Below are positions 13,087-34,284 of a DNA stretch of 48,406 nt, piece by piece. This DNA comes from Prochlorococcus sp. AG-388-E21. GTDB lineage: Bacteria > Cyanobacteriota > Cyanobacteriia > PCC-6307 > Cyanobiaceae. Where the stretch lies: assembly GCA_003279855.1 (NCBI GenBank), contig QCGO01000009.1, positions 1 to 48,406 on the forward strand. The letters are read 5' to 3'. Made by a program: the position numbers and the translations under genes. Below the pieces are notes generated by a model. That model was not told where the DNA came from, did no database searches, and saw only the letters and a program-made list of their open reading frames with translations. Each line of letters begins with the position of its first letter. The stretch's first letter is position 1.

Positions 13087-14463
13087 TTATATTCTAAAAC
13101 TAATAGTGTTTTTTATAAAAATAATACTAACTTGCAATATTTTTTTTAACAAAGTCATTGGGTTTTTACAAGTAATATTTTCCTTAATAAGATCTTGAAA
13201 GTAAAAGAAATATATAAAATTCTTATATGTTGCTATGTTTTTTACTTCAAACTTTCCATTCACTCTAAGGGTATTGAATCCATAATCATGAATTAGAGAA
13301 TGGAGTAGAACCTCTGAATAAATTTTTATATTCCAATCATCATTTTCATAAATTTTATTATTTTTTAAATAGGAAAAATAAATTTTCTGATCTATATCTT
13401 TAACATAAATACAAACTGGTTTTATAAATTTTAATGCTTCTAATATCGCTGGTAAAAATAGAAAATTTTTATTAATTAACTTTAATAACTTTTTGGTTTC
13501 TTTTTTTAAGATGTTAATTTCAATAGTACTTATTTTTATTTCTTTTGGTTTTGTATTAGCGAATAAATTACCCCAATGTTGAATGGCGTTACTTGATAAG
13601 TTTTCTAATTTAATAGAAAAATTATAAGATTGATTTAAATTTATTAAATCCATAGGCTTTAAAAAAAATATTTTATTACTTATTGAATTAAGTAAAGGAG
13701 AATTTTTTACTTTCTCTGGAGTATTTTGTTGTGCATTTAGATAAAAGCTTTCTTTATCGCAAAAGCTTATAAAAGAAGCATATGGGATTATAATTTTAGG
13801 AAATAAATAATCATGTTGTAAAAGTAGCCTCTCTATTTTTTCGGTTGCAGCTTTTAATCTAATTTCTTCATGTTCTTTATTCCCAATCCAATTGGCATAT
13901 CCAAATTGCGTGAATAAAAAGTCTAAATTATTTGTTATCTTGTTAATCTTAGATGAGATTTTCTTTGCTTCTTTTTTATTGTCTACAATGCAATCATTTA
14001 AGTTTAATATTTTAAAATTTTTGTATTTTACCAATGAATATGAATCGCCATTCTTGTGCGCCCAAATATAAATAGATAATTTACTATCTAAGATGATTCT
14101 TTTTCCATCAATAGCTTCTATTGAATGAATATTCATACTATCAAGAAATTTAATTACTCTTTTATCAAGAGTTTTTTGAAAAATTACAATTGTTTTGGGA
14201 ATTTTCGTATAAATTTCTTTTAAAAAACTGATTGAAAAATGATCTGAATGTTCATGAGAGTACCAAATAAAAATTTTCTTTTTTGATTTAGTCAACTCTT
14301 TTATTATTTCTTTATTCGAACTTGATTCGTCTAGTAGACTCCAGCCATTATTAAAAGCTAATCCCTCAAGCCAAGGATCACAAATTAAAATAGAATTCTT
14401 ACTCTCGATGTAATAGCATGCATGATTTATAAATTTTAATTTCCCCTCATTATCAATTTTCAT
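13087..14463 (-). CDS. CMAH-like metallo-beta-lactamase-fold hydrolase without a Rieske domain
   Basis: A 458-residue protein with a metallo-beta-lactamase fold at the N-terminus: HEHSDH metal-binding motif at 70-75, preceded by the CDPWLEG and GWSLLDES blocks at about 28-47. Those blocks recall the metal-binding half of CMP-N-acetylneuraminate hydroxylase (CMAH) and relatives. The Rieske [2Fe-2S] domain that drives hydroxylation in CMAH is absent. The C-terminal 170 residues include a LLHSLIHDYGFNTLRVNGKF block and may form a separate small domain. The protein is rich in Lys, Ile and Asn, suggesting island-type composition. It lies at the head of a minus-strand run with ugd (15 bp). The substrate is unknown; a sugar-nucleotide or surface-glycan precursor is inferred from context only. 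Confidence 0.65.
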   Translation of the reverse strand: MKIDNEGKLKFINHACYYIESKNSILICDPWLEGLAFNNGWSLLDESSSNKEIIKELTKSKKKIFIWYSHEHSDHFSISFLKEIYTKIPKTIVIFQKTLDKRVIKFLDSMNIHSIEAIDGKRIILDSKLSIYIWAHKNGDSYSLVKYKNFKILNLNDCIVDNKKEAKKISSKINKITNNLDFLFTQFGYANWIGNKEHEEIRLKAATEKIERLLLQHDYLFPKIIIPYASFISFCDKESFYLNAQQNTPEKVKNSPLLNSISNKIFFLKPMDLINLNQSYNFSIKLENLSSNAIQHWGNLFANTKPKEIKISTIEINILKKETKKLLKLINKNFLFLPAILEALKFIKPVCIYVKDIDQKIYFSYLKNNKIYENDDWNIKIYSEVLLHSLIHDYGFNTLRVNGKFEVKNIATYKNFIYFFYFQDLIKENITCKNPMTLLKKILQVSIIFIKNTISFRI

Positions 14464-16108: not shown

Positions 16109-18007
16109 TTAAATTGATTTTTCCCATTCAACCACAAGCTCGTTAAGAATTTTTAAAGCACTATTTTTATCTCTTTGCGAAATGGTCTTCTTTAAAGATT
16201 CTAATTTAGGGTTTAATTTTTCAATTACAATATACTTTTCATTTGCTCTGAAAATTAAAGGGTGATCTGTTTTTTTTGCTTCAGCATCAATTAAGAGTTC
16301 TTCATATAGTTTTTCACCAGCTCTTAAACCTGTAATCTTGATTTCTATATCACCATTTGGTTGGATATTATCTTTTAATTGTAAACCGCTTAATTTAATT
16401 AACTTAATAACAAGATCTTTTATACATATTGATTTACCCATATCTAAAAGAAAAACTTCACCTCCTTTTGCCATCGCTGATGATTGGATAACTAATTGAG
16501 CCGCTTCTTTAATAGTCATAAAATATCTTGTTATTTTTGGATGAGTTAGTGTAACTGGACCTCCTGAAGAAATTTGTTTTATAAAAAGTGGAACTGCCGA
16601 ACCAGAGGAGCTTAATACATTTCCAAATCTCACCATAGAAAAGCAAGTTTTAGGAGCCTCTTTAGAGGGAGTATTAACTTTTACATCATTAGCAAAAGCT
16701 TGAACTATTATTTCTGAGAGTCTTTTAGTTGCACCCATAATATTTGTGGGTCTTACCGCTTTGTCTGATGAAATCATTAAAACTTTTTTCAAATTAAGAT
16801 TTCTTGAAGCTATGCATATATTAAGAGTTGAAAATACATTATTAGCGATGCTGTTTAATGAATTTATTTCTACCAATGGAACATGCTTATAAGCTGCAGC
16901 ATGAAAAACAATATCAACTTTTTCTTCGCTAAATAAATTGGTTAAAAAATCTAAATCACAGCAATTTCCTAATGTTGGTATTAATTTCAATTCTTCAAGG
17001 GATAATTTCTCAACTTCTGAAGTTATTTGGTATAAATTTGATTCACTATTATCTAAAAGGATGACTTTTTTGGGACTTAGTTCAATAATTTGCCTAGCTA
17101 ATTCACTTCCTATAGAACCACCTGCCCCAGTTATGCAAATTATAGCTCCTTCTATATCTTTGGATAGAAGATGCAAGTCAGGATCTACTGCATCTCTTTC
17201 AAGTAAATCTTCGACATTTATAGGCTTTAAAGAATCAATTATTGATTTACGTCTAGTGATTTCTGCTATTGATGGTATAGAAGATATTTTTATATTAAAT
17301 CTTTGCAAAGAGTTTAAAATCTCTTTCCTCCTTTTTGTTAAGAGGGATGGTATTGCTAAAAAAATTTGGTCAATATTCTTTAATGTTTTTTGCAAGGAGT
17401 AAGGAGGATAAATTTTTATACCATTTATTTCTCTGTACCATAAACTAGAGTCATCATCGATAAAAAAACATACTTTATACAAGTTGGATATCTTTAATGC
17501 TGCTTCAAGTTGTCTTCCAGCGCCACCCGCTCCATATATAGCTATAGATTTTGCATTTTTTGATTTGAAAGAAATTCTTTTTTGTAAGCTATCTTTGTAT
17601 ATAAATCGGGATAATGAGGTGAAAGAAACAATAATAAAATAAAGAACTATCCAAGCTTTGAGATTTGGAATTTTAAACAAAAATATTTTTCCAATAATGG
17701 CTAAATTCACTAAAAGAAATAAAGAATAAGAGAAAAATTTATAAATATTTTTTGTTGTAAATAAACCAAATAGTGATTTATATTGATTTGATAATGAAAA
17801 TATAAAAACACCTAGAAAAGGTGCTAACCATAATATCCATGAATAATCATCAGGGAACCCCCTTAGATCTGACTTTAACCCTTCAAAAGAAATGTTTCTA
17901 TAACGAAGACCTATTTGGCAGGCCAAATAAATCAATAAAAAATCAATTATGGGTACTAATAGAGAATCTAATCTAAACCTTTTAATAAATTTTCTTAAGA
18001 ATTTCAT
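16109..18007 (-). CDS. Membrane-bound nucleotide-sugar 4,6-dehydratase (WbpM/CapD/FlaA1 family)
   Basis: A 632-residue protein with an N-terminal membrane region (segments at about 17-35, 55-72, 90-110 and 117-133), an intermediate Rossmann domain (IYGAGGAGRQ, 158-167) and a catalytic SDR domain (ITGAGGSIGSE, 292-302). The active-site region is SSDKAVRPTNIMGATKR: Met424 takes the place of the usual SDR Tyr before Lys428, as in WbpM-type UDP-GlcNAc 4,6-dehydratases. It probably makes UDP-2-acetamido-4-keto-2,6-dideoxy-hexose, which a DegT aminotransferase could then use. The gene overlaps the upstream phosphoglycosyl transferase gene by 4 bp and is the last of a ten-gene run. Confidence 0.92.
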   Translation of the reverse strand: MKFLRKFIKRFRLDSLLVPIIDFLLIYLACQIGLRYRNISFEGLKSDLRGFPDDYSWILWLAPFLGVFIFSLSNQYKSLFGLFTTKNIYKFFSYSLFLLVNLAIIGKIFLFKIPNLKAWIVLYFIIVSFTSLSRFIYKDSLQKRISFKSKNAKSIAIYGAGGAGRQLEAALKISNLYKVCFFIDDDSSLWYREINGIKIYPPYSLQKTLKNIDQIFLAIPSLLTKRRKEILNSLQRFNIKISSIPSIAEITRRKSIIDSLKPINVEDLLERDAVDPDLHLLSKDIEGAIICITGAGGSIGSELARQIIELSPKKVILLDNSESNLYQITSEVEKLSLEELKLIPTLGNCCDLDFLTNLFSEEKVDIVFHAAAYKHVPLVEINSLNSIANNVFSTLNICIASRNLNLKKVLMISSDKAVRPTNIMGATKRLSEIIVQAFANDVKVNTPSKEAPKTCFSMVRFGNVLSSSGSAVPLFIKQISSGGPVTLTHPKITRYFMTIKEAAQLVIQSSAMAKGGEVFLLDMGKSICIKDLVIKLIKLSGLQLKDNIQPNGDIEIKITGLRAGEKLYEELLIDAEAKKTDHPLIFRANEKYIVIEKLNPKLESLKKTISQRDKNSALKILNELVVEWEKSI

Positions 18008-18744
18008 GACTTTTTTAGATCTCTGCTGAGAACTAATTTTTCTGCACCTGGCGGGGGTAAAGGTTTAAGTTCTGTATCCCTCAGTACTATTTTTGATAAG
18101 TCTCTTGGAGCATTGAGTTTTATCATGATTTTATAAAGAAGTGACAATGAAACTTTTTTAGAAATAATCCTCAACAACGTTAAAAAAATAATTACTATAT
18201 CAAGGATTAATGATTGTTTTTTTATATAAAATAAGCCCAATCTGCTTTTCCATGGTCTAATTAGTTGATTATAAGTAATATCAGGATCCTGTACGTTTTT
18301 TAAAATTTCTGATTCATCTGAAAAAACTATGGAAGCTATATCAGTAATGCCTGGTTTAACTCTCAATAATTCTCTTTCTACTCTCGTATATATTTCTATT
18401 TCTCTTTTGACGTTAGGTCTTGGACCAACAATACTCATTTCTCCAATAAATACATTAAAAAGTTGAGTAAGTTCATCTAATTTAAACTTTCTTATAAATT
18501 TACCAACTCTTGTAATTCTTGGGTCATTACTAGAGGTACTATCAACTTTACTTTTATCCGCATCTACTATCATTGACCTTAGTTTAATCATTCTAAAGTT
18601 TCGATTATTTTTCCCAACTCTATTAGCAATATAAAGGGGAGAATCTTTATCCTGTAAATAAATTAGAAGACTAGCAAATATAATAATAGGAAATATTATA
18701 AAAATACCTAAAAAAGAAAAAACTAAATCAAAACACCTTTTCAT
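18004..18744 (-). CDS. Initiating phosphoglycosyl transferase (monotopic, WcaJ/PglC family)
   Basis: A 246-residue monotopic sugar-phosphate transferase that starts each repeat unit by moving a sugar-1-phosphate from a UDP-sugar to undecaprenyl phosphate. An N-terminal hydrophobic hairpin (about 5-30) is followed by the conserved block PLYIANRVGKNNRNFRMIKLRSM, the catalytic Asp-Glu pair D90-E91 in KLDELTQLFNV, and GEMSIVGPRP at 101-110. The C-terminal tail (about 190-246), with a second hydrophobic stretch and a PLPPPGAEK segment, is longer than in minimal PglC-type enzymes. It overlaps both neighbours by 4 bp, so translation is likely coupled with the aminotransferase and dehydratase that make its probable substrate. 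Confidence 0.92.
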   Translation of the reverse strand: MKRCFDLVFSFLGIFIIFPIIIFASLLIYLQDKDSPLYIANRVGKNNRNFRMIKLRSMIVDADKSKVDSTSSNDPRITRVGKFIRKFKLDELTQLFNVFIGEMSIVGPRPNVKREIEIYTRVERELLRVKPGITDIASIVFSDESEILKNVQDPDITYNQLIRPWKSRLGLFYIKKQSLILDIVIIFLTLLRIISKKVSLSLLYKIMIKLNAPRDLSKIVLRDTELKPLPPPGAEKLVLSRDLKKS

Positions 18745-19844
18745 TTTCTATAAAAGTCGATAATCTTTTCGCAAATATAATCTATATCATCATTAGAAAT
18801 AAACATGTTCATAGGGATCATGATACATTCTTTAAAAAAAGCTTCAGATTTAGGCAAGTGGAGATTAAAACCCAAATGTTCCCATTGATGAATAGCTTTA
18901 CCTCCCCATTGAATTAAAGTCCCAATCCCATTATCTTTTAAATATTTCTGTAAACCATTCCTTCTTTGAGCTACGATTTCGTAATTCTGAAAAACATCAA
19001 AATGATCTGAATTCTTTTTTGGCGATTCTGGTAATTTCAATTCGTCTAAAACCGATAGTCTTGAATCATATCTTGAAGCAATTTCTCTTCTCCTTTGAAT
19101 AATAGTTTCATAGGATTTTAGATTGAAATTTAATATTGCTGCCTGGAGATTATCTAGTCTACTATTTCTACCCCAAGACTTAACATTCCCATCCTTATCT
19201 CTCCCATGATCATGAAGTTGATATGCTCTATCAAAAATATTTTCATCTTGACAAAGTATGGCTCCTGCGTCTCCAAAGCAACCTAGAACTTTTGCAGGAA
19301 AAAAGCTTATAGCAGAGGCATTACCAAACGTACCCGCATTTTTCCCTTTAAATTTCGAGCCTAATGCCTGTGCAGCATCTTCTACCACGAAAAGTTTATA
19401 TTTATTTGCTATTTCCATTATTCTCTCCATGTCACATGTACGACCATTTAATTGTGTAGGCATTATTCCTACAGTTCTTGATGTAATGGAGGCTTCAATT
19501 GCATCAGGATCAATTAAATTATCATCGCCTATCTCTACAGGAATAGGATTCCCACCCGCTACTTTTATAGATGATGCAGTAGCTAACATTGTGTGTGCGC
19601 TACAAATTACTTCATCTCCTTGTCTTAAGTTTAAAGCCATCCAAGAAATTTCTAAACCATCAGTGGCGTTTGCTACGCCAATTGAATAATTTGAGGATAC
19701 GAATTGAGATAAATTTTTTTCAAAATCCTCTACGTCTTTTTGCATTATGAAAGCTCCTCTGGAAGAAACTTCTGAGAAAACATTCAAATATTCATCTTTT
19801 TTATCTAAAAAGAGTCTTGGGTAATCAAAGAAAGGGATTTTCAT
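18741..19844 (-). CDS. DegT/DnrJ/EryC1/StrS sugar aminotransferase
   Basis: This 367-residue PLP enzyme transfers an amino group to a keto-sugar nucleotide. The PLP-binding lysine is K185 in SFFPAKVLGCFGDAG, the conserved Asp is D156 in VVEDAAQALGS, and the HGRDKDG and GRNSRLDNLQAAIL blocks complete the family pattern. It could be a WbpE-type enzyme acting on UDP-3-keto-GlcNAcA (WbpA-, WbpB- and WbpD-like genes lie upstream in the same run) or a PglE/PseC-type C4-aminotransferase acting on the product of the dehydratase downstream. Motifs visible by eye do not decide between these. It sits 8 bp after the E1-beta gene and overlaps the transferase gene by 4 bp. Confidence 0.9.
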   Translation of the reverse strand: MKIPFFDYPRLFLDKKDEYLNVFSEVSSRGAFIMQKDVEDFEKNLSQFVSSNYSIGVANATDGLEISWMALNLRQGDEVICSAHTMLATASSIKVAGGNPIPVEIGDDNLIDPDAIEASITSRTVGIMPTQLNGRTCDMERIMEIANKYKLFVVEDAAQALGSKFKGKNAGTFGNASAISFFPAKVLGCFGDAGAILCQDENIFDRAYQLHDHGRDKDGNVKSWGRNSRLDNLQAAILNFNLKSYETIIQRRREIASRYDSRLSVLDELKLPESPKKNSDHFDVFQNYEIVAQRRNGLQKYLKDNGIGTLIQWGGKAIHQWEHLGFNLHLPKSEAFFKECIMIPMNMFISNDDIDYICEKIIDFYRK

Positions 19845-19852
19845 TCTTTCAA

Positions 19853-20842
19853 TTATAAATTATTATCAAAAATACTTTTAATAAAACCAAAAACTTTTTC
19901 CTTAGAAGGATAATATTCAGCTTCTAAAACTTTACTTGTCGGAGCTGGTGTGAAGGGTAATGTCATTCTAGAGGGCTTCGATTTAAAAATTTTGGGTGGA
20001 ACATTTTCTACAACTGAGGTAATTATTTCAGAAGAGATACCGCAAGGCCCCCATCCACCGTCGAGTACAAATAAACGGCCAGTTTTCTTTACTGAATTCG
20101 TAATTAATTCTTTATTAAATGGATTTATTATCCGCATATCAATAATTTCAGGATTGATTTTATGGCTTTTTAATTTTTGGGTTATTTTTCTAAGTAAAAA
20201 GGTTGTGTAGCCACATCCAACTAAAGTAATTGAATCACCTTTTTCAAGAATTCGTGGAGTTATTGAATTTAAATTAATTTTATTTGCTGGAAGTAAATCA
20301 TCTTCTTGATCGTATAACCACCTATCATCGATATATATTACCGGTTGTCCTGATAAAACTGATGCGATTAAAAGATCTCTAGCATCAGATACAGTTGATG
20401 GCATTACAACCTTTAAACCAGGGATATGTGCAAACCAAGAATGTAAAGCTTGAGAGTGCTGAGCACCTTGCTCACCACCCCTATTAATTATTCCTCTTAT
20501 TGTAATGGATGGACTTGATTGCCCTCCAAACATGTAAGACCATTTGGCTGCTTGATTAACAATTGGATCGATAGCATACAACATGAAATCCATTCTTGGA
20601 TGAACAACGATAGGTTTCATTCCATTAAGTGATGCTCCAATCGCAGCCCCTGTAACGGCTCCTTCCGAAACAGGAGTATCTATAATTCTTTTTTTACCAA
20701 ACTTTTTATCAAGGTCTTTCATAGTATTTCCCACATACCAGGGACTCCATAAACCTTGACCTATTACAAATACTTCTGAGTAATTTGTTAATAAAAAATT
20801 ATATCCATCAAGAATGGCGCTGCTGTATGTGAATTTATTCAT
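19853..20842 (-). CDS. TPP-dependent dehydrogenase/transketolase-like E1 beta subunit
   Basis: A 329-residue protein like the beta subunit of pyruvate or branched-chain 2-oxo acid dehydrogenase E1. The pyrimidine-binding domain (about 1-185) has the catalytic Glu60 in DTPVSEGAVTGAAIGAS, and the transketolase C-terminal domain begins near 200 (GDSITLVGCGYTT). The tight pairing with E1-alpha (7-bp gap) indicates an alpha2beta2 enzyme. No E2 or E3 partner is nearby, and the surroundings are sugar-nucleotide genes, so it is probably not a housekeeping dehydrogenase. A comparable E1-like pair (AviB1/AviB2 in avilamycin synthesis) has been proposed to attach a two-carbon branch to a keto-sugar; a similar role here is inference. 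Confidence 0.85.
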   Translation of the reverse strand: MNKFTYSSAILDGYNFLLTNYSEVFVIGQGLWSPWYVGNTMKDLDKKFGKKRIIDTPVSEGAVTGAAIGASLNGMKPIVVHPRMDFMLYAIDPIVNQAAKWSYMFGGQSSPSITIRGIINRGGEQGAQHSQALHSWFAHIPGLKVVMPSTVSDARDLLIASVLSGQPVIYIDDRWLYDQEDDLLPANKINLNSITPRILEKGDSITLVGCGYTTFLLRKITQKLKSHKINPEIIDMRIINPFNKELITNSVKKTGRLFVLDGGWGPCGISSEIITSVVENVPPKIFKSKPSRMTLPFTPAPTSKVLEAEYYPSKEKVFGFIKSIFDNNL

Positions 20843-20849
20843 AATTTAA

Positions 20850-21890
20850 TTAATTATTTTTAAAAACATATTTCTTTGTTTTACTCCATTCTGGAGATTC
20901 ATCCTTTAAAGCATCATTCCATGCCTTATCAATTTTTTTCTGAATTTCTTTTTCTAATAGTTTAAATTCATCCATAGATAAATTAAATTTTTTAATAAGT
21001 GATTTTTTTAATCTTAAAATAGGATCTCTTTTCTTCCAAAAAATTAAGTCTTTTTGGGATCTCCTTATACCTACATCAATATCTTCTCTCCAATCAACAT
21101 GTCCCAGCCATCTATATGTAACAGCCTCTATAAAAAAAGGACCTTCGCCGTTTCTACATCTTTTAATAAATTCTTCACTAGCTTTGCAAATTGAGGGTAA
21201 ATTATTACCATCAATTAATTTTGACTCTATATCATTTGATTTTGCAAATCTATAAGTCAATTCTTTTGGTTGCCTTAATTTTATATTTAAGTGACTTGAG
21301 AACAAATTATTTTCAACTATGAATATAATGGGACAATTATTTATTCGAGCAAAATTTAAACTTTCATGTACGATACCTTCTTCAATTGCTCCATCACCTA
21401 AATAAGCAATAGAAACATTTTTTTCTCTTTTTAACTTATTCGCTAAAGCAGATCCAGTAGCCAGCGGAACTGTACCCCCTACTATTGGTACTGAACCATA
21501 AAACCCAACTGATTCTGCAAAAAGGTGCATTGAGCCCCCCATCCCTTTTGAAATTCCTGATGATTTAGCTAGGATTTCAGCAAAAAATGACTTAAGATCT
21601 ACCCCTAATGAAATAATATGAGCATGAGATCTATGCCCGCCAAAGATTTGATCTTTACAAGTTAAATATTTAGAAATACCTACTGGAATAGCTTCCTGAC
21701 CAATACCCAAATGAACAGGTCCACCAACTAAACCATATTTTCTTCCTTCTGCAATTTTGTATTCTGAATTTCTTATTAGTATCATCTTTGAGATCATCTC
21801 TAATAATTCATTTTTAGAAAAATTATCAATATTAATTTCTAACTCTGAGGTTAGAGATTCTAGTTCAGAATTATGAGAATATTCTTTCAT
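20850..21890 (-). CDS. TPP-dependent dehydrogenase/transketolase-like E1 alpha subunit
   Basis: This 346-residue E1-alpha homologue carries the thiamine diphosphate motif: GDG at 165-167 and NN at 194-195 (LGDGAIEEG through VENNLFSS). Other E1-alpha landmarks are GGHRSHAH near 84-91, the KGMGGSMHLF block at 115-124 and the GHVDWREDIDVGIRRSQ phosphorylation-loop-like region in the C-terminal third. It should bind the cofactor jointly with the beta subunit encoded 7 bp downstream. It is preceded by an 82-bp gap after the GT4 gene. The likely chemistry is decarboxylation of a 2-oxo acid (pyruvate?) and transfer of the activated two-carbon unit to an unknown, perhaps sugar, acceptor. The family is certain; the role is not. 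Confidence 0.86.
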   Translation of the reverse strand: MKEYSHNSELESLTSELEINIDNFSKNELLEMISKMILIRNSEYKIAEGRKYGLVGGPVHLGIGQEAIPVGISKYLTCKDQIFGGHRSHAHIISLGVDLKSFFAEILAKSSGISKGMGGSMHLFAESVGFYGSVPIVGGTVPLATGSALANKLKREKNVSIAYLGDGAIEEGIVHESLNFARINNCPIIFIVENNLFSSHLNIKLRQPKELTYRFAKSNDIESKLIDGNNLPSICKASEEFIKRCRNGEGPFFIEAVTYRWLGHVDWREDIDVGIRRSQKDLIFWKKRDPILRLKKSLIKKFNLSMDEFKLLEKEIQKKIDKAWNDALKDESPEWSKTKKYVFKNN

Positions 21891-21972
21891 TAATTATCTA
21901 GACGCAAGATATTAAAAATCATCTTTTAATAATAGATCAAATTTTGAAACTATTCATTAACATTTCAAAGAG

Positions 21973-23241
21973 TTATCTTCTCATATCTTTTTTTGAATAA
22001 TTTAGTTCAATAAATTCAATAAATTTTCCGTAAACCAAATCTGAATTAAACTTATTTTGGAACAACTCTTTTGCATTATTTGAGTATTTATTCCTTTCTT
22101 TCGGATAATTTAAACATGCATCAATTTGATCAGACCAAGTAATATTACTTTCACAAAAATATCCAACATTATATTCTTTAATAAGAGTCTCCACTTCTCC
22201 TTTTAGAGAAGTAATTATTGGAAGACCAAAAAATAAGCTATCTATTATTTTGTTTGGTATGCTCATTTGAAAATCATTAGTATTTCGATAAGGTGCTAAG
22301 GTCGCTATTGATAATTTTTTTAAAGCTAGTAATTTTTCATAATCAATCCATCCTGGAAAAAAAACATTATTTTTATGGTTAAGTTTTTCCTCTAATTCTT
22401 TTTTACAATTACCCTCACCACAAATTATAAATTCAAGCTTACTTTCTTCTAATTTGGGACTTAATAAAGCTAAAATTAATTCATCAAAATCATATGCATT
22501 ATTTATACTTCCAACAAAAATGATTTTATTCTTTTGATTTATATCTATACCTATTTCTTTTTGCCACCATATAAGATTCTCATTTAATTTTTGTTCTGAG
22601 ATTTCTTTTATATTTGGGACTAAATATAAAGTCTGATTATTTTTACTGTAATTTTTTGAAAAATTTTCTGACCAATTTAAAAATTTTGGAGTTATCGCAG
22701 TTAAAAAATCAGCTTGTTTTAAAGAATATCTTGCGGCATAAAAATACGGTTTCAAAATTATCTTTAATATTTTTCTCATAAACCCCTTTGTCTTCATTAG
22801 AAAAATATGAGGCCATTGATCTTTGACATCAATACAGAATGGTATTTTATGGAGCTTTAACCAAATGGAAAGAAAAAAACAAGTTTCAATAGGTGGATAT
22901 CCTATAAATACAAAGTCTGGATAATCTAATTTTTTTGTCTTTAAAAGATATTTAAAAGTGTTTATTCCAAGAATAAAATGATCTAAAAGTCTTTTAAAAC
23001 TAATATTTGAAGAGTACCCAAGAGATGGGATAAGAATTACTTCGCAATTTTTATTAATCCTTATTTTTGAAAACTTATTTGTTCTATGTATCTTCATTTG
23101 ATGGCTGAAGTCAGAACTTATGAGAGTCGTATAATGCCCATTTTTGATAAAGTATTCTGATAAATTTATTGCTCTCATAGATCTTAATTTATTCCCATCA
23201 ATTGGTAAAAATTCACCTGTTTGAAATAACCAAATTTTCAT
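21973..23241 (-). CDS. GT4-family glycosyltransferase (WbuB-like)
   Basis: A 422-residue GT-B fold enzyme. It opens with MKIWLFQTGEFLPIDGNKLR and RSMRAINLSEYF, a start typical of WbuB-like O-antigen glycosyltransferases. The C-terminal donor domain (about 230-400) has the strand KIIFVGSINNAYDFDELI and the NKIIDSLFFGLPIIT segment, where GT4 enzymes bind the nucleotide sugar. It probably adds one residue, possibly an amino-uronic sugar made by the adjacent Wbp-like enzymes, to the lipid-linked repeat unit on the cytoplasmic face. It lies 18 bp after the Gfo/Idh gene within the ten-gene run. Donor and acceptor are unknown. Confidence 0.85.
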   Translation of the reverse strand: MKIWLFQTGEFLPIDGNKLRSMRAINLSEYFIKNGHYTTLISSDFSHQMKIHRTNKFSKIRINKNCEVILIPSLGYSSNISFKRLLDHFILGINTFKYLLKTKKLDYPDFVFIGYPPIETCFFLSIWLKLHKIPFCIDVKDQWPHIFLMKTKGFMRKILKIILKPYFYAARYSLKQADFLTAITPKFLNWSENFSKNYSKNNQTLYLVPNIKEISEQKLNENLIWWQKEIGIDINQKNKIIFVGSINNAYDFDELILALLSPKLEESKLEFIICGEGNCKKELEEKLNHKNNVFFPGWIDYEKLLALKKLSIATLAPYRNTNDFQMSIPNKIIDSLFFGLPIITSLKGEVETLIKEYNVGYFCESNITWSDQIDACLNYPKERNKYSNNAKELFQNKFNSDLVYGKFIEFIELNYSKKDMRR

Positions 23242-23259
23242 AATTATAAAAATTAAAAA

Positions 23260-24357
23260 TTAAGTTATGTTTATAAATTTCTTTTCTTTGGCAGATTTAT
23301 AAGCAGCATCTATTATCTTTATGCTTGATAAGCCACTGTCTCCATCGCATATAGCTTCTTTATTATTGATAAGGTTATCTAACATGTTTTGATAATAAAG
23401 GTTATGACCAAATCCATAAACTGAATCTGGTTTGTAATTATAATCATTCAAATTCTTTTCATTTTTATCATTTTCAAAATATGAATATTCAAATTCATTC
23501 ACTGCGATTCCTCCAACCTTCGCACTTCCTTTATCGCCAATAATAGTAATAGAACCTTCGATATTCTTAGGATAAGTTATCATTGTTACTGACATTGAGC
23601 CAAGAGCTCCATTTTGCCATTTTAATTGCAATACTGCTGTATCCTCTACTTCTATTTTTCTACTAATAGTTGATATTGTTGCATATAAACCTTCTAAAGG
23701 TCCTACAATCCATTCTAGTAAATCTACATAATGGCTTGCTTGATTAAGTAATGCTCCTCCATCAAATTTTGCCGTTCCTCTCCATTCATCTTGATCGTAA
23801 TAGGACTGAGGTCTTTGCCAAAAAACGTTTACATCTACTATCCCAATATTTCCAAATTTTTTCTCATCTACTTTCTTTTTTAAAATCTGTAATGTGGAAT
23901 TGAACCTGTTTTGTTTAACTACAAAGAGCTTTACATTAGATTTTTTACAAACTTCTATCATTTCTTCTGCATCATTTACATTTAAAGCCATTGGCTTTTC
24001 AGTACATACATTTATTCCCGAACTAGCAGCGATTTTTGTTTGTAAAGGATGCATTCCACTAGGAGTAGCAAGAACTACTAAGTCCAAAAAAATTTCATTA
24101 TTAGTATGAGCATTTATTAAATCTTGGTATGAATTGTATTTGTTTAATGATTTATAAAGAAAGTTATTTTTAATTAGATGCTCCTTATAATAAGTATTTG
24201 TATTTTCAAGCCTATTCATATTGTGATCACAAAGAGCAACTAACTCACATCTTTTATATTCACTAATAATAGCTTTGATATGTTTTTTGCTGATTCGTCC
24301 GCAACCGATAATTGCGACATTTATTTTGAATGAGTTTTTATTTGATTTATTAAACAT
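23260..24357 (-). CDS. Gfo/Idh/MocA oxidoreductase (WbpB/WlbA-like sugar 3-dehydrogenase)
   Basis: A 365-residue NAD(P)-dependent oxidoreductase. The Rossmann motif VAIIGCGRISKKH is at 14-26, the conserved EKP motif (TEKPMAL) at 120-125 with K121 as the likely catalytic residue, and a C-terminal alpha/beta domain includes FDGGALLNQASHYVDLLEW with the conserved His. WbpB/WlbA enzymes oxidise C3 of UDP-GlcNAc-uronate before transamination. The gene is flanked upstream by WbpA- and WbpD-like genes (6 bp and 37 bp gaps in the run), and an aminotransferase lies further down, which supports that pathway. Other Gfo/Idh sugar oxidations remain possible. Confidence 0.87.
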   Translation of the reverse strand: MFNKSNKNSFKINVAIIGCGRISKKHIKAIISEYKRCELVALCDHNMNRLENTNTYYKEHLIKNNFLYKSLNKYNSYQDLINAHTNNEIFLDLVVLATPSGMHPLQTKIAASSGINVCTEKPMALNVNDAEEMIEVCKKSNVKLFVVKQNRFNSTLQILKKKVDEKKFGNIGIVDVNVFWQRPQSYYDQDEWRGTAKFDGGALLNQASHYVDLLEWIVGPLEGLYATISTISRKIEVEDTAVLQLKWQNGALGSMSVTMITYPKNIEGSITIIGDKGSAKVGGIAVNEFEYSYFENDKNEKNLNDYNYKPDSVYGFGHNLYYQNMLDNLINNKEAICDGDSGLSSIKIIDAAYKSAKEKKFINIT

Positions 24358-24363
24358 TTAAAT

Positions 24364-25689
24364 CTAGGCTCTTACAATTTTCGAAGAAGAGGTAAACCTC
24401 CCCCTAGTATCAATGATAAGTTTGCTATTTTTTCTAATAATTTCATAAGGAAAAATATCATGATCAGTAAGTAACAATACACAATCAAAAGAATTTAAAA
24501 TATCCTCAGTTATTTCAGCACTCTCAATTTTTAGATTGAATTTTCTTACTTTAGGTAACTTTAAAATATATGGATCATTATATTTTACAAAAGCCCCCTT
24601 CTTAAGAAGATTATCAATAATTACTAGAGATGGAGATTCTCTTATATCGTCAATATTTTTTTTGTATGACAAACCTAAAACTAATATTTTGCTACCTTTA
24701 ATTGACTTACTTCTTTCATTTAGGGCGTTAAAAATCTTTTCAAGAACGTAGTTTGGCATTGAAGTATTGATCTCACCTGCTAATTCAATGAATTTAGTAT
24801 TCATGTCATATTCTCTAGCTTTCCAAGTTAAATAAAAAGGATCAATTGGAATGCAATGCCCACCCAATCCAGGACCAGGATAATATGGCGTAAAACCAAA
24901 CGGTTTTGTTGAGGCAGCATCTATTACTTCATACAAGTCTATATCCATTTTATCTGCTAATATTTTCAATTCATTTACAAGTCCGATATTGACGGCTCTG
25001 TGTATATTTTCTAAGAGTTTCGTTAACTCGGCAGCTCTTGTTGAAGAAACTGGGACAAGTTTTTTTATTATTTTTGAATACAACTCAACACCCATATCTT
25101 TACATTCTGGGGTTATTCCTCCAATAACTTTTGGTATAGATGATGTAGTATAATTTTTGTTTCCAGGATCTTCTCTCTCTGGAGAAAATACTAGAAAGAA
25201 ATCTTTTCCAATTTCAAAACCCAAAGATTCAATTTCTGGCATCAATACCTCTTCGGTAGTTCCTGGATAGGTAGTACTTTCTAAACTTAAAAGTTGACCT
25301 TTTTTTAAAAATTTCTTAAGGGAATTAAAGGTTGTTTTTATATATCCCAAATCAGGTTCTCTATTTTTATTAAGAGGCGTTGGAACGCATAAAATAATAG
25401 CAATACATGATTCAATAAAAGAAAAATCAGATGTTGGGATTAACTTTTGTGATTCGATAACTTTAGAAATCCTAACGCTATTTATATGCCTTAAATAACT
25501 TTCTTTACTATTTAATTTGGATATTTTTTTTTGATCTATATCTATTCCAATAACCGAAAATTTATTCTCAGCAAAAGTTAAAGCTAAGGGGAGTCCAACA
25601 TAACCAAGACCAACAATAGCAATACTTTTTTCTCTATTTTTAATATTTTTTATAAAAGTATTAATTAAATCATTATTATTTATTTTCAT
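24364..25689 (-). CDS. UDP-N-acetylglucosamine 6-dehydrogenase (WbpA-like)
   Basis: A 441-residue nucleotide-sugar dehydrogenase of the WbpA/WbpO class. The NAD motif is AIVGLGYVGLPLAL at 24-37, the catalytic cysteine is C279 in GPGLGGHCIPIDPFY, and the C-terminal domain has the LGLSYKKNIDDIRESPS motif. This class oxidises C6 of UDP-GlcNAc or UDP-GalNAc, unlike the UDP-glucose-type enzyme at 11623-13071. It lies between WbpD- and WbpB-like genes, which points to the UDP-diacetamido-uronic acid pathway. Its ATG is preceded by a run of A residues (T run 25689-25699 on the plus strand) with no Shine-Dalgarno sequence. Confidence 0.92.
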   Translation of the reverse strand: MKINNNDLINTFIKNIKNREKSIAIVGLGYVGLPLALTFAENKFSVIGIDIDQKKISKLNSKESYLRHINSVRISKVIESQKLIPTSDFSFIESCIAIILCVPTPLNKNREPDLGYIKTTFNSLKKFLKKGQLLSLESTTYPGTTEEVLMPEIESLGFEIGKDFFLVFSPEREDPGNKNYTTSSIPKVIGGITPECKDMGVELYSKIIKKLVPVSSTRAAELTKLLENIHRAVNIGLVNELKILADKMDIDLYEVIDAASTKPFGFTPYYPGPGLGGHCIPIDPFYLTWKAREYDMNTKFIELAGEINTSMPNYVLEKIFNALNERSKSIKGSKILVLGLSYKKNIDDIRESPSLVIIDNLLKKGAFVKYNDPYILKLPKVRKFNLKIESAEITEDILNSFDCVLLLTDHDIFPYEIIRKNSKLIIDTRGRFTSSSKIVRA

Positions 25690-25726
25690 TTTTTTTTTTA
25701 AGTTATTAACTTTTAATTACAATAAA

Positions 25727-26353
25727 CTATTTTAGTTTCTCAGCAAATATTTCTGATTCTTTTAAAGAATATTTAATATTCATTTTTTGGCATATCCATA
25801 TACCAAAACCGCTCAATGGTAAGGGTATATTTTCACCGTATTCACTAATCCAACCAACTTGCTTTGCAGGGATCCCTTTAACTAAGGCATATGAGCTTAC
25901 ATTTTTTGTCACAACTGCCCCAGCAGCAATAAATGCATTTTCTCCAATAGTTATTCCACAGATTATGGTGCAATTAGCACCTAATGAGGCACCTTTCTTT
26001 ACAAGAGTATTTTTATATTCTTGTTTCCTTTTTATCTTTGATCTGGGATTTATTACATTTGTAAATACCATGCTGGGACCGCAGAAAACATCATCTTGAA
26101 GAGTAATATTGTCGTAAATCGAGACATTATTCTGAACTTTTACGTTGTTTCCTATTCTAACTTTGTTAGCAACAAATACATTTTGTCCAAAAGAACAATT
26201 TTTTCCGATAATAGCCTCTGAACAAATATGAACCCAATGCCAAATTTTAGTATTTTCTCCTATGGTCGCGCCTTTATCTATAATTGCAGAAGATTCTATT
26301 TGGACACTTGGATGAACTCCAAAATTAAATTTTTTATTTGAATCATTTAACAT
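25727..26353 (-). CDS. Hexapeptide-repeat N-acetyltransferase (WbpD/WlbB-like)
   Basis: This 208-residue left-handed beta-helix acyltransferase has hexapeptide repeats from about residue 14 to 155 (for example [20 protein letters not shown], then [21 protein letters not shown]) and the [19 protein letters not shown] block near the end. WbpD/WlbB enzymes acetylate the 3-amino group of UDP-GlcNAc3NA. The arrangement with WbpA-like, WbpB-like and aminotransferase genes in one transcription run makes this assignment likely. Its ATG overlaps the stop of the preceding Wzy-like gene (TAATG). Compared with WbpD (about 190 residues) it is slightly longer. Confidence 0.9.
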
Positions 26354-27678
26354 TATAAACTTTTGGAATTTTTGGAATAACTAACTAATATATTTTCTTT
26401 AGAGATAGGCACACATTTTAATCCTGAAAATAAAATGCTTATTAGCAAGCTAATCTTACCATCATAAAAAGTCATATCATTTATGTGCATTATTAATACT
26501 ACAAGAGAAGCACATAGCCAGGTTTTGTCTAAATTATAATTTTCAGTCTCTTTATTGTATTTAGAAGAAAAAGCAAAAGGTATAGCTTTAATAAAAATAA
26601 TAATGGCAATAGAAGTAATTAAAATTGCAGTAGGAATGCCAAAATTAAATGCTATCTCAAATAATAAATTATGAGTATGTTGAGGTTCAAAGTATATAAA
26701 AGGAGGGTTCCACATATTTTCTTTATTTGTGTAGATTAAGAAAAATACACCTGCCCCCCACCCAAAAAAAGGTCTTTGTAAAATAAAGTTTATAGCAGTT
26801 CTAAAAATTATAATTCTAGGGGAATTTATAAAAAACATATTTCCAAATCTTTCAAAAATAATTGGCAAAAAACTAGTAATTTTTATATTAATTATGGATA
26901 AAATTGGATTAAACAATAGTAATAATAATATTAGAATCAAAACTAATAGAATGCTTTTAACTCCAAAAAATATAATCAAAGTAGAGATCATACTTAAAAA
27001 AGCATTTCTGGAATTTGTAGAAATTATTAAATAAATATTTAAAAGTATAATTAAAATGCCCCAAATACTTTTAATTTTGCAACTAAAAATTTTTTTAAAA
27101 AAATATAACGTAAAAGGTAAACTAACTGATAACCAAAAACCTGCATAGTTTCTGTTACTAAAAAGTCCTGATATCCCTCCAGTATCGTTTAAAGGTTTCT
27201 GGAACCATACAATTAATCCGTTTAGTATTTCAAAAGGTCCATTAATATCAAAAAATAATTGAAAGAGGCAACTAGCAATTACAGGAATAGTTCCAGCAAA
27301 GAAATATTTTGAAAACTCTAATCTATCGTTTTTTGTTTTGAGATAGCTTTGGAAACCTATAAAACAAATTAAAGTTGGTATCCAGTTAAATAAATTTAGC
27401 CATAAAAGCGAATTGCTTAAATTTTCTATCTCTTTGGGTACTTGATAGATTAGGTTATTAATTGTGCTAAAAAAAATTAAACCAATAGCAATTAATATAG
27501 ATAAATTTATTTTTTCTTTTAAATATAAGAATTTATTTTTTTGGAAAGAGAGTATTAATGCAAAAATTAAAAATACCCCTGCTATGGGTAAGGCTGTGGG
27601 CAAGAAAAACACGCCTATTAGAAATAAAAATTTACCTGTATCAGTATTAAAAATTTTTAAAAAATTTTTAATTAACAT
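26353..27678 (-). CDS. O-antigen ligase/polymerase family membrane protein (Wzy/WaaL)
   Basis: A 441-residue integral membrane protein with about 11-12 hydrophobic segments. The large periplasmic loop between late segments holds the Wzy_C-type pattern: [12 protein letters not shown] followed by [18 protein letters not shown], with the conserved His pair. Such proteins either polymerise repeat units (Wzy) or join glycan to lipid A-core (WaaL); sequence alone does not separate them. In this locus, with Wzx and Wzz-like proteins and no other candidate, a polymerase role is plausible. It is the first gene of the ten-gene run, only 35 bp after the 3' end of tRNA-Arg on the same strand. Confidence 0.85.
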
Positions 27679-27713: not shown

Positions 27714-27787
<74 letters not shown>

Positions 27788-31219: not shown

Positions 31220-32122
31220 GTGATTACATTACCATCTGGGGTTGATATTAATAATCTTATTGATGATCTTAGGACTTTTAGTTGGGAGGCTTCTGAAACC
31301 CTACTCTATTATGCTCAAAAATTAAAAGATACCAATAATAAAAGCAATATTATCAAAAACAATAACGAAGAAGATCCCGTAACCTTAGCTGACTTAAAAG
31401 TAAATGAGATAATAATAAAAAGAATTAATGAAAAATATAGAGATATTAATTGGGGAATTTTAAGTGAAGAGAATGAAAAGATAACCTCTGAAAATTTTAA
31501 TAATGAAGCTCAATGGACGTGGGTTCTTGATCCTCTTGATGGAACTAAGGATTTCCTTCAAGGTACAAGAAATTATGCAATGCATTTAGCCTTGAACTAT
31601 AGACAAAAACCCTATCTTGGTATTGTTTTAATTCCAGAAAAGGAGCAATTATGGATTGCAGATGGAGAAAAAGTTTGGTGTGAAAAAAAAGATGGTTCAA
31701 AAATTAAACCTAATCTTTCTAAAAATAAAAATCTTCAAGAGATGATACTGGTAACAAGTAAAAACCATAGAAATCCCACTTTAAAAAATTTAATTAAAAA
31801 AATTAATTTCAAAGATGTCATTATCATGGGAAGCATAGGATGTAAAATTGCATCAATTGTTAGAGGGGAAAGTGATATCTATATATGTTTAAGCTTACCC
31901 GGAAAAAGTTCTCCAAAAGATTGGGACTTCGCAGCACCTGAGGCTATTTTAAAAACAGCTGGAGGAGCAATTACAAATTTAGATAATGAAGGTTTATCCT
32001 ATGGGGAATCGAATTTCCAACAAGGGGGAATAATTGTTGCATCAAGCAATATAAATATTCATGAGGATTTATGTTTAGAAATAAAAAAAATTATTAAAAG
32101 GTACGAAATTTATCCTATTTAA
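31220..32122 (+). CDS. cysQ: 3'(2'),5'-bisphosphate nucleotidase, CysQ-like inositol-monophosphatase fold
   Basis: A 300-residue magnesium-dependent phosphatase, probably clearing phosphoadenosine phosphate from sulfate assimilation. The metal-binding motifs are [11 protein letters not shown] (about 51-61), [12 protein letters not shown] (99-110) and [15 protein letters not shown] (about 235-249). The start is GTG; the codon just before it is the in-frame stop TAA, and no other good start follows for at least 30 codons. The start is 3 bp from divergent rsmI, and the stop overlaps convergent pnp by 4 bp, so the gene has no intergenic DNA of its own. Substrate specificity within the family is inferred. 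Confidence 0.9.
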
Positions 32123-34284
32123 TTTAGAGGGGCCACTGGAGTTGGGGTTGGTTCTGGATAAGACATCCCCCCATTTTGAGCTACTCCTCTTAAAGTTAGA
32201 TTAATTCTTCCTCTGCTATCAATTTCTCGAACTCTTACGGTTACCTCATCACCTTGTCTGACGACATCTTCAACTCTCTCAACACGCGCCTCAGATAATT
32301 GTGATATGTGAACCATACCTTCTTTACCAGGAAGGATTTCAACAAAAGCACCTATTGGGATAATTCTTGTTACGACTCCAGAGAATATTTCACCTTCATG
32401 TACTTTTCTAGTTAATCCCTCTATTATTTTCTGAGCTTCTTCAGCAGCAGCACCGTCATGGGATGCGATAGTAACAATTCCTCCATCCTCAATATCTATT
32501 TTGGTATTAGTTCTTTCAGTGATCCCTTTAATAGTTCTCCCCCCTGGTCCAATTACAGTCCCTATAAGTTCTGGATCTATTCTAAAGCTTAAGAGTCTTG
32601 GCGCATGTGGAGATAATGATTCTTGAGGTTTATCAATCGCCTCTTGCATTTTTTCTAAAATATGTAATCGTGCAGGACGTGCTTTTTTTATGGCATCAGA
32701 GATAATCGAAACTGGTAATCCTGTAATTTTCATATCCATTTGCAATGCAGTTATACCTTTTTCAGTTCCGGCAACTTTGAAATCCATATCTCCAAGGAAA
32801 TCCTCAATGCCTTGAATATCTGTAAGGATTCGGACTTCTTTACCTTCTTTAATTAACCCCATTGCAGTACCGCTAACAGGAGCTTTTAGAGGTACCCCTG
32901 CATCAAGTAAAGAAAGCGTACTTCCGCAAACTGACCCCATAGAGGTAGATCCGTTTGAGCTTAGAACTTCACTAACTACTCTCAGTACATATGGGAATGT
33001 TTCTTTACCTGGAAGCACAGGGATTATTGCTCTTTCTGCTAATGCTCCATGACCTATTTCCCTTCTGCCTGGAGTTCTCATTGGTCTAGTTTCTCCAACT
33101 GAATAAGGTGGAAAATTATAGTGGTGTAAGTAAGTTTTCTCAGTACTTGGATTAAGGTCATCCATTTCTTGAGCATCACTTGGAGTCCCTAATGTAGTTG
33201 TAGATAAGACTTGGGTTAAACCTCTTTGAAATAATGCTGAGCCATGGACTCTTTTCGGAAGTATCCCAGCAGAAGCAGTGATCTTTCTAACTTCATCAAG
33301 ATCTCTCCCGTCAACTCTTTTCCCATCATTAATGATTTGTGTTCTCATTAATTTTTTGGTTAACTTTTTGAAGTCAGAATGTATTAATTTTTCATTCTCT
33401 GAAGTAAGAACTTTTAATTGATTATCGTCTTTAAGTGAATTAATTTTGCTTTGCACTTCAAGTTCTACTTTATCTAATTCTAGATCTCTATCTTCTTTAG
33501 TTTGATCAAATTTCTTTAAAATTTGATCAATTGATTTCGTGCAGTTTTTTTCTAAATATGTTGCTAATGATTTATCTTCTTCTGGTTCTAAAGGCTTGAC
33601 CTGTTTTATTCCTATATCTTTAAGAAGATTTTCTTGAGCGTTAATTAATTCGGTTACAGCCTCATAACCAAAATCTATAGCTTCAATAGTATCTTGTTCA
33701 GAAAGTTGATTGGCACCTGCCTCAATCATTACAATCCCTTCTGGAGATCCTGCTACAACAATATCAAGATCACCTTTTTCTATTTCTCTGTAACTTGGAT
33801 TTAAAATAAAATCATCTCCTATTAGTCCAACTCTTACAGCAGCCATTGGTCCGTAAAATGGTATTTCTGCTAACAAGGTTGCAATAGAAGCTCCCGTAAC
33901 TCCAAGAACATCTGCAGGTACTCTTTCATCTAAAGATAAGCAAGAAGCAACTATTTGGATTTCGTCCCTCATCCATGAAGGGAAAAGGGGCCTCATTGGC
34001 CTATCTATTAACCTTGCTATTAATGTTGCTCTTTCAGGAGGTCTGCCTTCTCTTCTCATGAATCCGCCTGGGATTCTTCCGGCAGCATATAGTTTTTCCT
34101 CGTAATCACATATTAGAGGTAGAAAGTCTGCGGGTTGTTTCTTCGTTGTTTTTGTCGCGGTAACTAATAAAGATGTGTCTCCGCACTCGATCATTACAGC
34201 GCCTCCAGCCTGAGGTGCATATAGTCCAGTAGTTAGTCGTATCTCTCGTCCGTCAAACGTGATCGACGTATTTTTTCCTTCCAC
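32119..34284 (-). CDS. pnp: Polyribonucleotide nucleotidyltransferase (PNPase)
   Basis: A 721-residue 3'-5' phosphorolytic exoribonuclease and polymerase, part of RNA turnover and tailing. Two RNase PH domains (about 10-225 and 310-545, the second with [15 protein letters not shown] and the [13 protein letters not shown] block) frame an all-helical linker, followed by a KH domain (about 560-620, [14 protein letters not shown]) and an S1 domain (about 625-700, [11 protein letters not shown] through [14 protein letters not shown]). The start is GTG, selected because [15 protein letters not shown] is the usual cyanobacterial N-terminus. A TATAAT hexamer ends 8 bp before the GTG. The gene lies 191 bp downstream of rpsN and overlaps cysQ tail to tail by 4 bp. 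Confidence 0.97.

Follow-up and report, generated by a model that had tools for sequence, protein, structure and literature searches.

The 48,406-nt window analysed here, the whole of contig QCGO01000009.1 of Prochlorococcus sp. AG-388-E21, carries at 18741-21890 on the minus strand three adjacent open reading frames (ORFs), already located in an earlier note on its letters, for an E1-alpha-like subunit, an E1-beta-like subunit and a DegT aminotransferase, all with intact catalytic residues. They lie inside a ten-gene surface-glycan operon on the same strand (16109-27678) that opens with a Wzy-type gene and closes with a WbpM-like dehydratase. On the basis of gene content and phylogeny, we propose that the E1 pair is probably a stand-alone thiamine diphosphate (ThDP) carboligase that adds the two-carbon (C2) unit of pyruvate to a keto-sugar, after which the aminotransferase would finish the branch.

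The alpha subunit kept the ThDP-binding motif GDGA...ENN together with His60 and His264, and the beta subunit kept Glu60 and His129, bearing out the earlier note's statement that the ThDP motif and the catalytic Glu are intact; the Pfam scores of both subunits and of the aminotransferase were all well above the family cut-offs. The pair is tied to the aminotransferase by gaps of 7 bp (E1-alpha to E1-beta) and 8 bp (E1-beta to aminotransferase), as the note had reported, the last three operon genes (aminotransferase, sugar-phosphate transferase and dehydratase) overlap their neighbours in this trio by 4 bp, and the widest gap in the operon, 82 bp, falls just before E1-alpha. The note had also seen no genes for the E2 and E3 components of a dehydrogenase complex near the pair, and none was found among the 20 window ORFs (of 54 listed) that were run against Pfam.

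The genome (1.66 Mb in 17 contigs, estimated 100% complete, the window being all of contig C9) holds a further E1-alpha on contig C8, cut by the contig end, a further E1-beta of 332 amino acids on contig C3, and its sole 2-oxoacid_dh (E2) match on contig C1. These PdhA and PdhB proteins pass the NCBIfam pyruvate dehydrogenase (PDH) models (406 against a cut-off of 393.85, and 378.6 against 321), whereas the window pair stays below the same cut-offs (TIGR03182, 276.7 vs 393.85; NF006667, 217.6 vs 321). Because the cell has its own PdhA, PdhB and E2 on other contigs, the window pair is an extra one, and the case that the note had named as fatal, in which the pair would be the only PDH E1 with E2 and E3 encoded elsewhere, is excluded by the genes on C8 and C3. 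A second PDH was rejected in view of the PdhA, PdhB and E2 genes on other contigs and of the separate clade described below. The PDH-like Pfam domains and catalytic residues of the pair, along with the single E2 in the genome, would fit a duplicated PDH E1 that serves central metabolism with the genome's E2 and E3 and whose place in the operon is accidental; we regard this as very improbable, given the failed PDH models, the separate clade with its own residues, the lack of E2 at the related loci and a cassette that stays tight across phyla.

In trees of the alpha and beta subunits (60 rows each; L014, L033 and controls without a paired beta gene left out), the window pair fell within a 30-row clade with support of 100/100 and identical membership in both trees, apart from acetoin-type E1s and from the genome's own PdhA and PdhB. 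The clade spans seven phyla (Cyanobacteriota, Pseudomonadota, Gemmatimonadota, Margulisiibacteriota, Bacteroidota, Verrucomicrobiota and, with one member, Bdellovibrionota), none of which is Actinomycetota; many members are metagenome-assembled genomes (MAGs) or single-cell genomes, of which individual placements may be mis-binned. The catalytic residues were conserved at 93-100% in 29 clade rows (L101 left out) and at 85-100% in the PDH- and acetoin-type controls (59 alpha and 30 beta). Residues private to the clade, and invariant or nearly so within it, flank the catalytic motifs in sequence and differ in the controls: FG.HRSH, GSVPIV, SH after ENN, RQP and YRW.GHV...ED.DV in the alpha subunit, and GQGLWSPWY, HPR (HPRxDFM), INRGGEQGAQHSQ and DDRW in the beta subunit. 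Judging by human PDH structures, several of them presumably lie near ThDP.

The E1 genes are under purifying selection, with ratios of nonsynonymous to synonymous substitution rates (dN/dS) of 0.09-0.20 in six pairs per subunit, the window entering one pair for each (0.14 and 0.09; dS about 1), which rules out pseudogenes. Within the window's family, 6 of 400 genomes match at E <= 1e-70, its own among them, so the system is rare and patchy there. In L015 and L018, three core flanking genes are 87-95% identical to those of the window, against about 55% for E1-alpha and 62-64% for E1-beta, a contrast as expected of a replacement island. A phage-borne module was rejected: an E1-beta alignment scan of viral contigs gave 132 pattern matches, none of them a relative, and 15 phage records match E1-alpha at 33.6% identity at most. 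Five regions were examined from the plasmid matches (best 40 of 629, 60 of 710 and 60 of 780), none of them beside deoxysugar genes; a Streptomyces plasmid E1 pair (L105) lies among nonribosomal peptide synthetase genes and groups with non-clade E1s on long branches. An E1 pair of a Nitrospina MAG (L031:9974-12017; 38 and 42% identity) falls just outside the clade; its neighbours include WbpD- and WbpM-like genes, no E2 turned up within 10 kb, and the pair may represent an earlier offshoot of this system.

We compared 29 related loci, window excluded, with 53 controls, taking flanks of 10 kb or up to the nearer contig end and labelling neighbours by their BLAST hits (E <= 1e-7) to a set of chosen queries; L014, L033 and L024, the last with no usable alpha ORF, stand outside these counts, and L006 (Prochlorococcus marinus MIT 9302) and L099 are one stretch of one genome counted twice. 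Within this range neither E2 nor E3 was found at any of the 29 loci, compared with E2 at 47 of the 53 controls. An E1-linked aminotransferase was present at 21 of the 29 (controls 1/53) and an aldo/keto reductase at eight (controls 1/53), the reductases being Pfam-checked for three and otherwise identified by BLAST to the L010 protein, with 32-54% identity for the other seven. One or the other occurred at 28 loci and both at a single one, an alternation predicted if the E1 step makes a ketone that either enzyme can finish. The alternation also occurs within the window's genus, where L100 has the reductase and the window, L097 and L099 the aminotransferase. The earlier note had proposed looking for the trio in other strains, and L097 carries it in the same order, within nine genes running from WbpD-like to WbpM-like as in the window, at 77% (E1-alpha), 83% (E1-beta) and 87% (aminotransferase) identity. 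The note's central idea, C2 transfer by the pair independently of E2 and E3, has the most support of the readings considered and is strengthened by the absent E2 and by the alternation, the activity itself being a prediction. A S-adenosylmethionine (SAM) methyltransferase lies near the cassette at 20 of the 29 loci, for example L012:7928-8671, the one checked with Pfam, and none was found with Pfam among the window genes next to the E1 pair, which suggests a further, optional modification.

The window aminotransferase kept the pyridoxal phosphate lysine of the S-F-F/Y-P-A/S-K motif, as did all 25 aligned aminotransferases, and in a 25-row tree it was one of 22 rows split with 100/100 support from three others (L012, L020 and L023). 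Against solved structures it scored 213.3 bits with 7b0d, 204.7 with QdtB and 193.4 with WbpE, whereas the WbpE-group enzyme of L012, which stands beside WbpB- and WbpD-like genes, reached 363.6 bits with solved WbpE. The lower score and the separate tree group rule out that the window enzyme is WbpE, and because group and scores set it apart from WbpE, it belongs with the E1 pair, a point that the earlier note had missed. WbpE-like enzymes stand alongside the E1-linked aminotransferase at L012 and L020, and alongside the reductase at L023. Ring ketones are the usual substrates of DegT enzymes, and the closest solved relatives of the window enzyme are ring aminotransferases; it could accordingly aminate an ordinary keto-sugar, like WbpE or PglE, with the E1 pair making an unrelated acyl donor or acyloin substituent. 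We consider this quite unlikely, since its group is linked to E1 pairs and not to WbpA, WbpB and WbpD, a separate WbpE stands beside it in L012 (363.6 vs 193.4 bits) and a WbpE-like one in L020, and a reductase takes its place beside other E1 pairs of this kind.

From these genes, motifs, phylogenies and neighbourhoods we infer a donor, an acceptor, a branch position, an order of steps and a product. The E1 pair, outside any dehydrogenase complex, would decarboxylate pyruvate to an acetyl-anion C2 unit and attach it to a keto group on a nucleotide sugar. The most probable site is C4 of the UDP-4-keto-6-deoxy-N-acetylhexosamine (UDP, uridine diphosphate; HexNAc, N-acetylhexosamine) from the WbpM-like dehydratase, and the product of this step would be a tertiary alcohol bearing an acetyl branch. 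The linked aminotransferase would then convert the branch ketone to a 1-aminoethyl group, and in sister cassettes the aldo/keto reductase would turn it into 1-hydroxyethyl; the hexapeptide transferase may N-acetylate the new amine, and the sugar-phosphate transferase would load the branched sugar first on the lipid carrier, initiating the glycan. The predicted product is a C-(1-aminoethyl) or C-(1-hydroxyethyl) deoxy-amino sugar. We favour C4 because, among the ketone-forming enzymes sought, only the WbpM-like dehydratase, whose product we take to be the 4-keto sugar, recurs at most loci (17/29). Of the 11 genomes whose locus had no such gene in the flank (L026 left out), eight encode a long WbpM-like protein (>300 bits to PF02719) elsewhere.

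An alternative acceptor is UDP-3-keto-GlcNAcA, the product of the WbpA- and WbpB-like enzymes, which would be branched at its C3 ketone, with the aminotransferase and the WbpD-like protein finishing a C3-branched uronic sugar. Within the operon, WbpA-, WbpB- and WbpD-like genes lie ahead of the pair, and all three also occur in L097 and L018. The genome has three strong DegT matches, one of them partial, and none is a clear WbpE, although the protein on contig C1 is 37% identical to the L012 WbpE. The known WbpABDE pathway leads to UDP-GlcNAc3NAcA and shares these three genes with the window, differing in that the window aminotransferase lies outside the WbpE group. C3 branching itself is described for aldgamycin and kibdelomycin in passages of PMC12247030. 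Across the related loci, however, a WbpB-like homologue occurred at only 4 of 29 and a WbpA-like one at 6 (three at only 24-33% identity), with WbpD-like at 7 and WbpE-like at 3, and L098 has WbpA- and WbpD-like genes and no WbpB-like gene within reach, whereas the core of E1 pair, aminotransferase or reductase, and sugar transferase is nearly constant. We therefore think C3 branching unlikely and keep the C4 branch as our working model.

The sugar-phosphate transferase accompanies 26 of the 29 related loci (controls 0/53), and at 24 of them a homologue of the window's GT4-type glycosyltransferase (23-68% identity) is encoded no more than 10 kb from the E1 genes. The E1 pairs of L010 (Polaromonas eurypsychrophila), with the reductase, and L011, with the aminotransferase, are sisters, and their sugar transferases fall in different groups, as if the transferase followed the type of the finished branch. 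A broader proposal, which we put forward only tentatively, is that the clade may be a cross-phylum family of two-subunit E1 carboligases for surface polysaccharides, whose products, 2-acetamido-4-C-(1-aminoethyl or 1-hydroxyethyl)-2,6-dideoxyhexoses, would form the first residue of the glycan on the lipid carrier; strains would switch between amine and alcohol through exchange, in a hypervariable island, of the aminotransferase or reductase along with the matching sugar transferase.

The proposed system resembles enzymes known from antibiotic pathways. According to passages of PMC12247030, two-subunit alphaKADH2 enzymes add the C2 unit of pyruvate to antibiotic keto-sugars, KbDH-alpha/beta joins pyruvate to ketones in vitro, and in some pathways the branch ketone then undergoes reduction, methylation, oxidation or, for kibdelomycin, transamination; excerpts of other reports describe reduction of the paulomycin acetyl branch by the aldo/keto reductase Pau7 (PMC4753412) and an N-acylated alpha-aminoethyl branch in the amycolose of kibdelomycin (PMC10055692). 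As described in parts of these sources, AviB1/AviB2, Pau11/Pau12 and KbDH-alpha/beta are, like the window pair, two-subunit PDH-E1-like ThDP enzymes in sugar-pathway clusters (PMC4753412, PMC4425429, PMC12247030). The window pair also shares with the alphaKADH2 systems the lack of nearby E2 and E3 and a predicted keto-sugar supplier, the WbpM-like enzyme, and unlike them it sits in a surface-glycan operon with a lipid-carrier sugar transferase, Wzy and UDP-HexNAc-type enzymes. YerE, which makes yersiniose of the O-antigen, uses pyruvate to extend a 4-keto deoxysugar of lipopolysaccharide (LPS) by a C2 unit, as proposed for the window pair, but is described in passages of PMC4753412 and PMC12247030 as a single thiamine pyrophosphate-dependent flavoprotein of the decarboxylase superfamily, whereas the window encodes two E1 subunits. 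PMC12247030 associates YerE-type branching chiefly with LPS and other cell structures, and alphaKADH2 enzymes for the most part with specialised natural products. With pyruvate and acetoin dehydrogenase E1s, the pair shares domains, ThDP motif and catalytic Glu and His, and differs in having no nearby E2 or E3, a separate clade and clade-specific residues.

Several observations weigh against a C4 carboligation finished by the aminotransferase. The closest solved relatives of the aminotransferase include QdtB, WbpE and 2oga, which we take to be C3-type enzymes (2oga presumably being DesV), and together with the WbpB-like gene they make a C3 branch or ordinary C3 amination possible. The L015 and L018 aminotransferases are only 37% identical, on a long branch inside the group of 22, and that of L018 has QdtB as its best solved match (161.3 bits). 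Aminotransferase and reductase are both missing from L016 and present together in L013. PF02719 in the wide sense matches in every one of the 11 genomes whose locus had no WbpM-like gene in the flank and in each of the 14 control genomes, so the presence of a dehydratase is weak evidence. The reductase loci L023, L027 and L028 carry sugar transferases outside the reductase-type group, the branch leading to the L022 transferase is very long, and resolution in this tree is poor. The likeness to AviB1/AviB2, Pau11/Pau12 and KbDH is drawn from their published descriptions, and shared ancestry may or may not underlie it. The controls are mostly housekeeping-type E1s, and the contrast with them separates the clade from PDH and does not prove the chemistry.

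The earlier note went too far in calling this a new chemistry: the reaction class is known from antibiotics, and C-4 branched octoses are made in Gram-negative LPS via YerE. What would be new is the E1 enzyme class in surface glycans, its own clade with a signature, and the logic of the cassette. Among the matches listed in open-licence literature, none pointed to work on E1 pairs that build branched sugars within surface-glycan clusters. Krug et al. 2024 reportedly gives a list of about 120 clusters, which may already contain Gram-negative glycan loci. If the proposal holds, E1-type pyruvate-dependent C2 branching, so far tied to rare antibiotics, would also occur on the surfaces of ocean bacteria as abundant as Prochlorococcus and Pelagibacteraceae, a class of branched amino sugars would be predicted with GQGLWSPWY...INRGGEQGAQHSQ as gene marker, and the pairs would be fresh candidates for ThDP catalysts that accept ketones. 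Phages typically target surface glycans, and a swappable branch could have a bearing on escape from them.

The operon genes are listed in Table 1, with Wbp names and pathway assignments that we take to apply.

Table 1 Genes of the surface-glycan operon in the window, in operon order
Feature	Position	Strand	Length (amino acids)	Basis
Wzy-type polymerase/ligase, first operon gene	26353..27678	-		PF04932; no NCBIfam match
Hexapeptide acetyltransferase (WbpD-like), candidate N-acetylator of the new amine	25727..26353	-		Pfam, NCBIfam
NDP-sugar (NDP, nucleoside diphosphate) dehydrogenase (WbpA-like)	24364..25689	-		Pfam, NCBIfam
Gfo/Idh/MocA oxidoreductase (WbpB-like), possible 3-keto-sugar maker	23260..24357	-		Pfam, NCBIfam
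GT4-type glycosyltransferase, directly upstream of E1-alpha	21973..23241	-		Pfam
E1-alpha-like subunit, ThDP/Mg-binding GDGA...ENN	20850..21890	-	346	Pfam E1_dh 188 bits
E1-beta-like subunit	19853..20842	-	329	Pfam Transket_pyr 83.8 bits, Transketolase_C 82.1 bits
DegT/DnrJ/EryC1 aminotransferase, E1-linked group	18741..19844	-	367	Pfam DegT_DnrJ_EryC1 284.1 bits
Short polyprenyl-phosphate sugar-phosphate transferase (Bac_transf)	18004..18744	-	246	Pfam
Long WbpM-like NDP-HexNAc 4,6-dehydratase	16109..18007	-	632	Pfam, NCBIfam

Just upstream of the operon lies a tRNA-Arg(TCT) gene (27714-27787), beyond which conserved core genes follow, for example a PNPase-like one at 32119-34284; the tRNA gene is likely the island boundary. 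Elsewhere in the glycan region, a 458-amino-acid protein (13087-14463, minus strand) has only a sub-threshold Lactamase_B_3 match (23.8 against a cut-off of 24). Adjoining formyltransferase and PIG-L deacetylase genes occupy 80-1632 on the plus strand, and proteins like them (33%) are encoded directly upstream of the E1 pair in L022. On contig C10, a different sugar cluster of the same genome contains a second E1-like pair, a degenerate one (L104:7161-8905, minus strand), consisting of a 282-amino-acid E1_dh protein (71.9 bits) and an overlapping 307-amino-acid partner for which neither Pfam nor NCBIfam gave a match at E 0.001, and adjoining a dTDP_sugar_isom-like protein and a PhyH-like dioxygenase.

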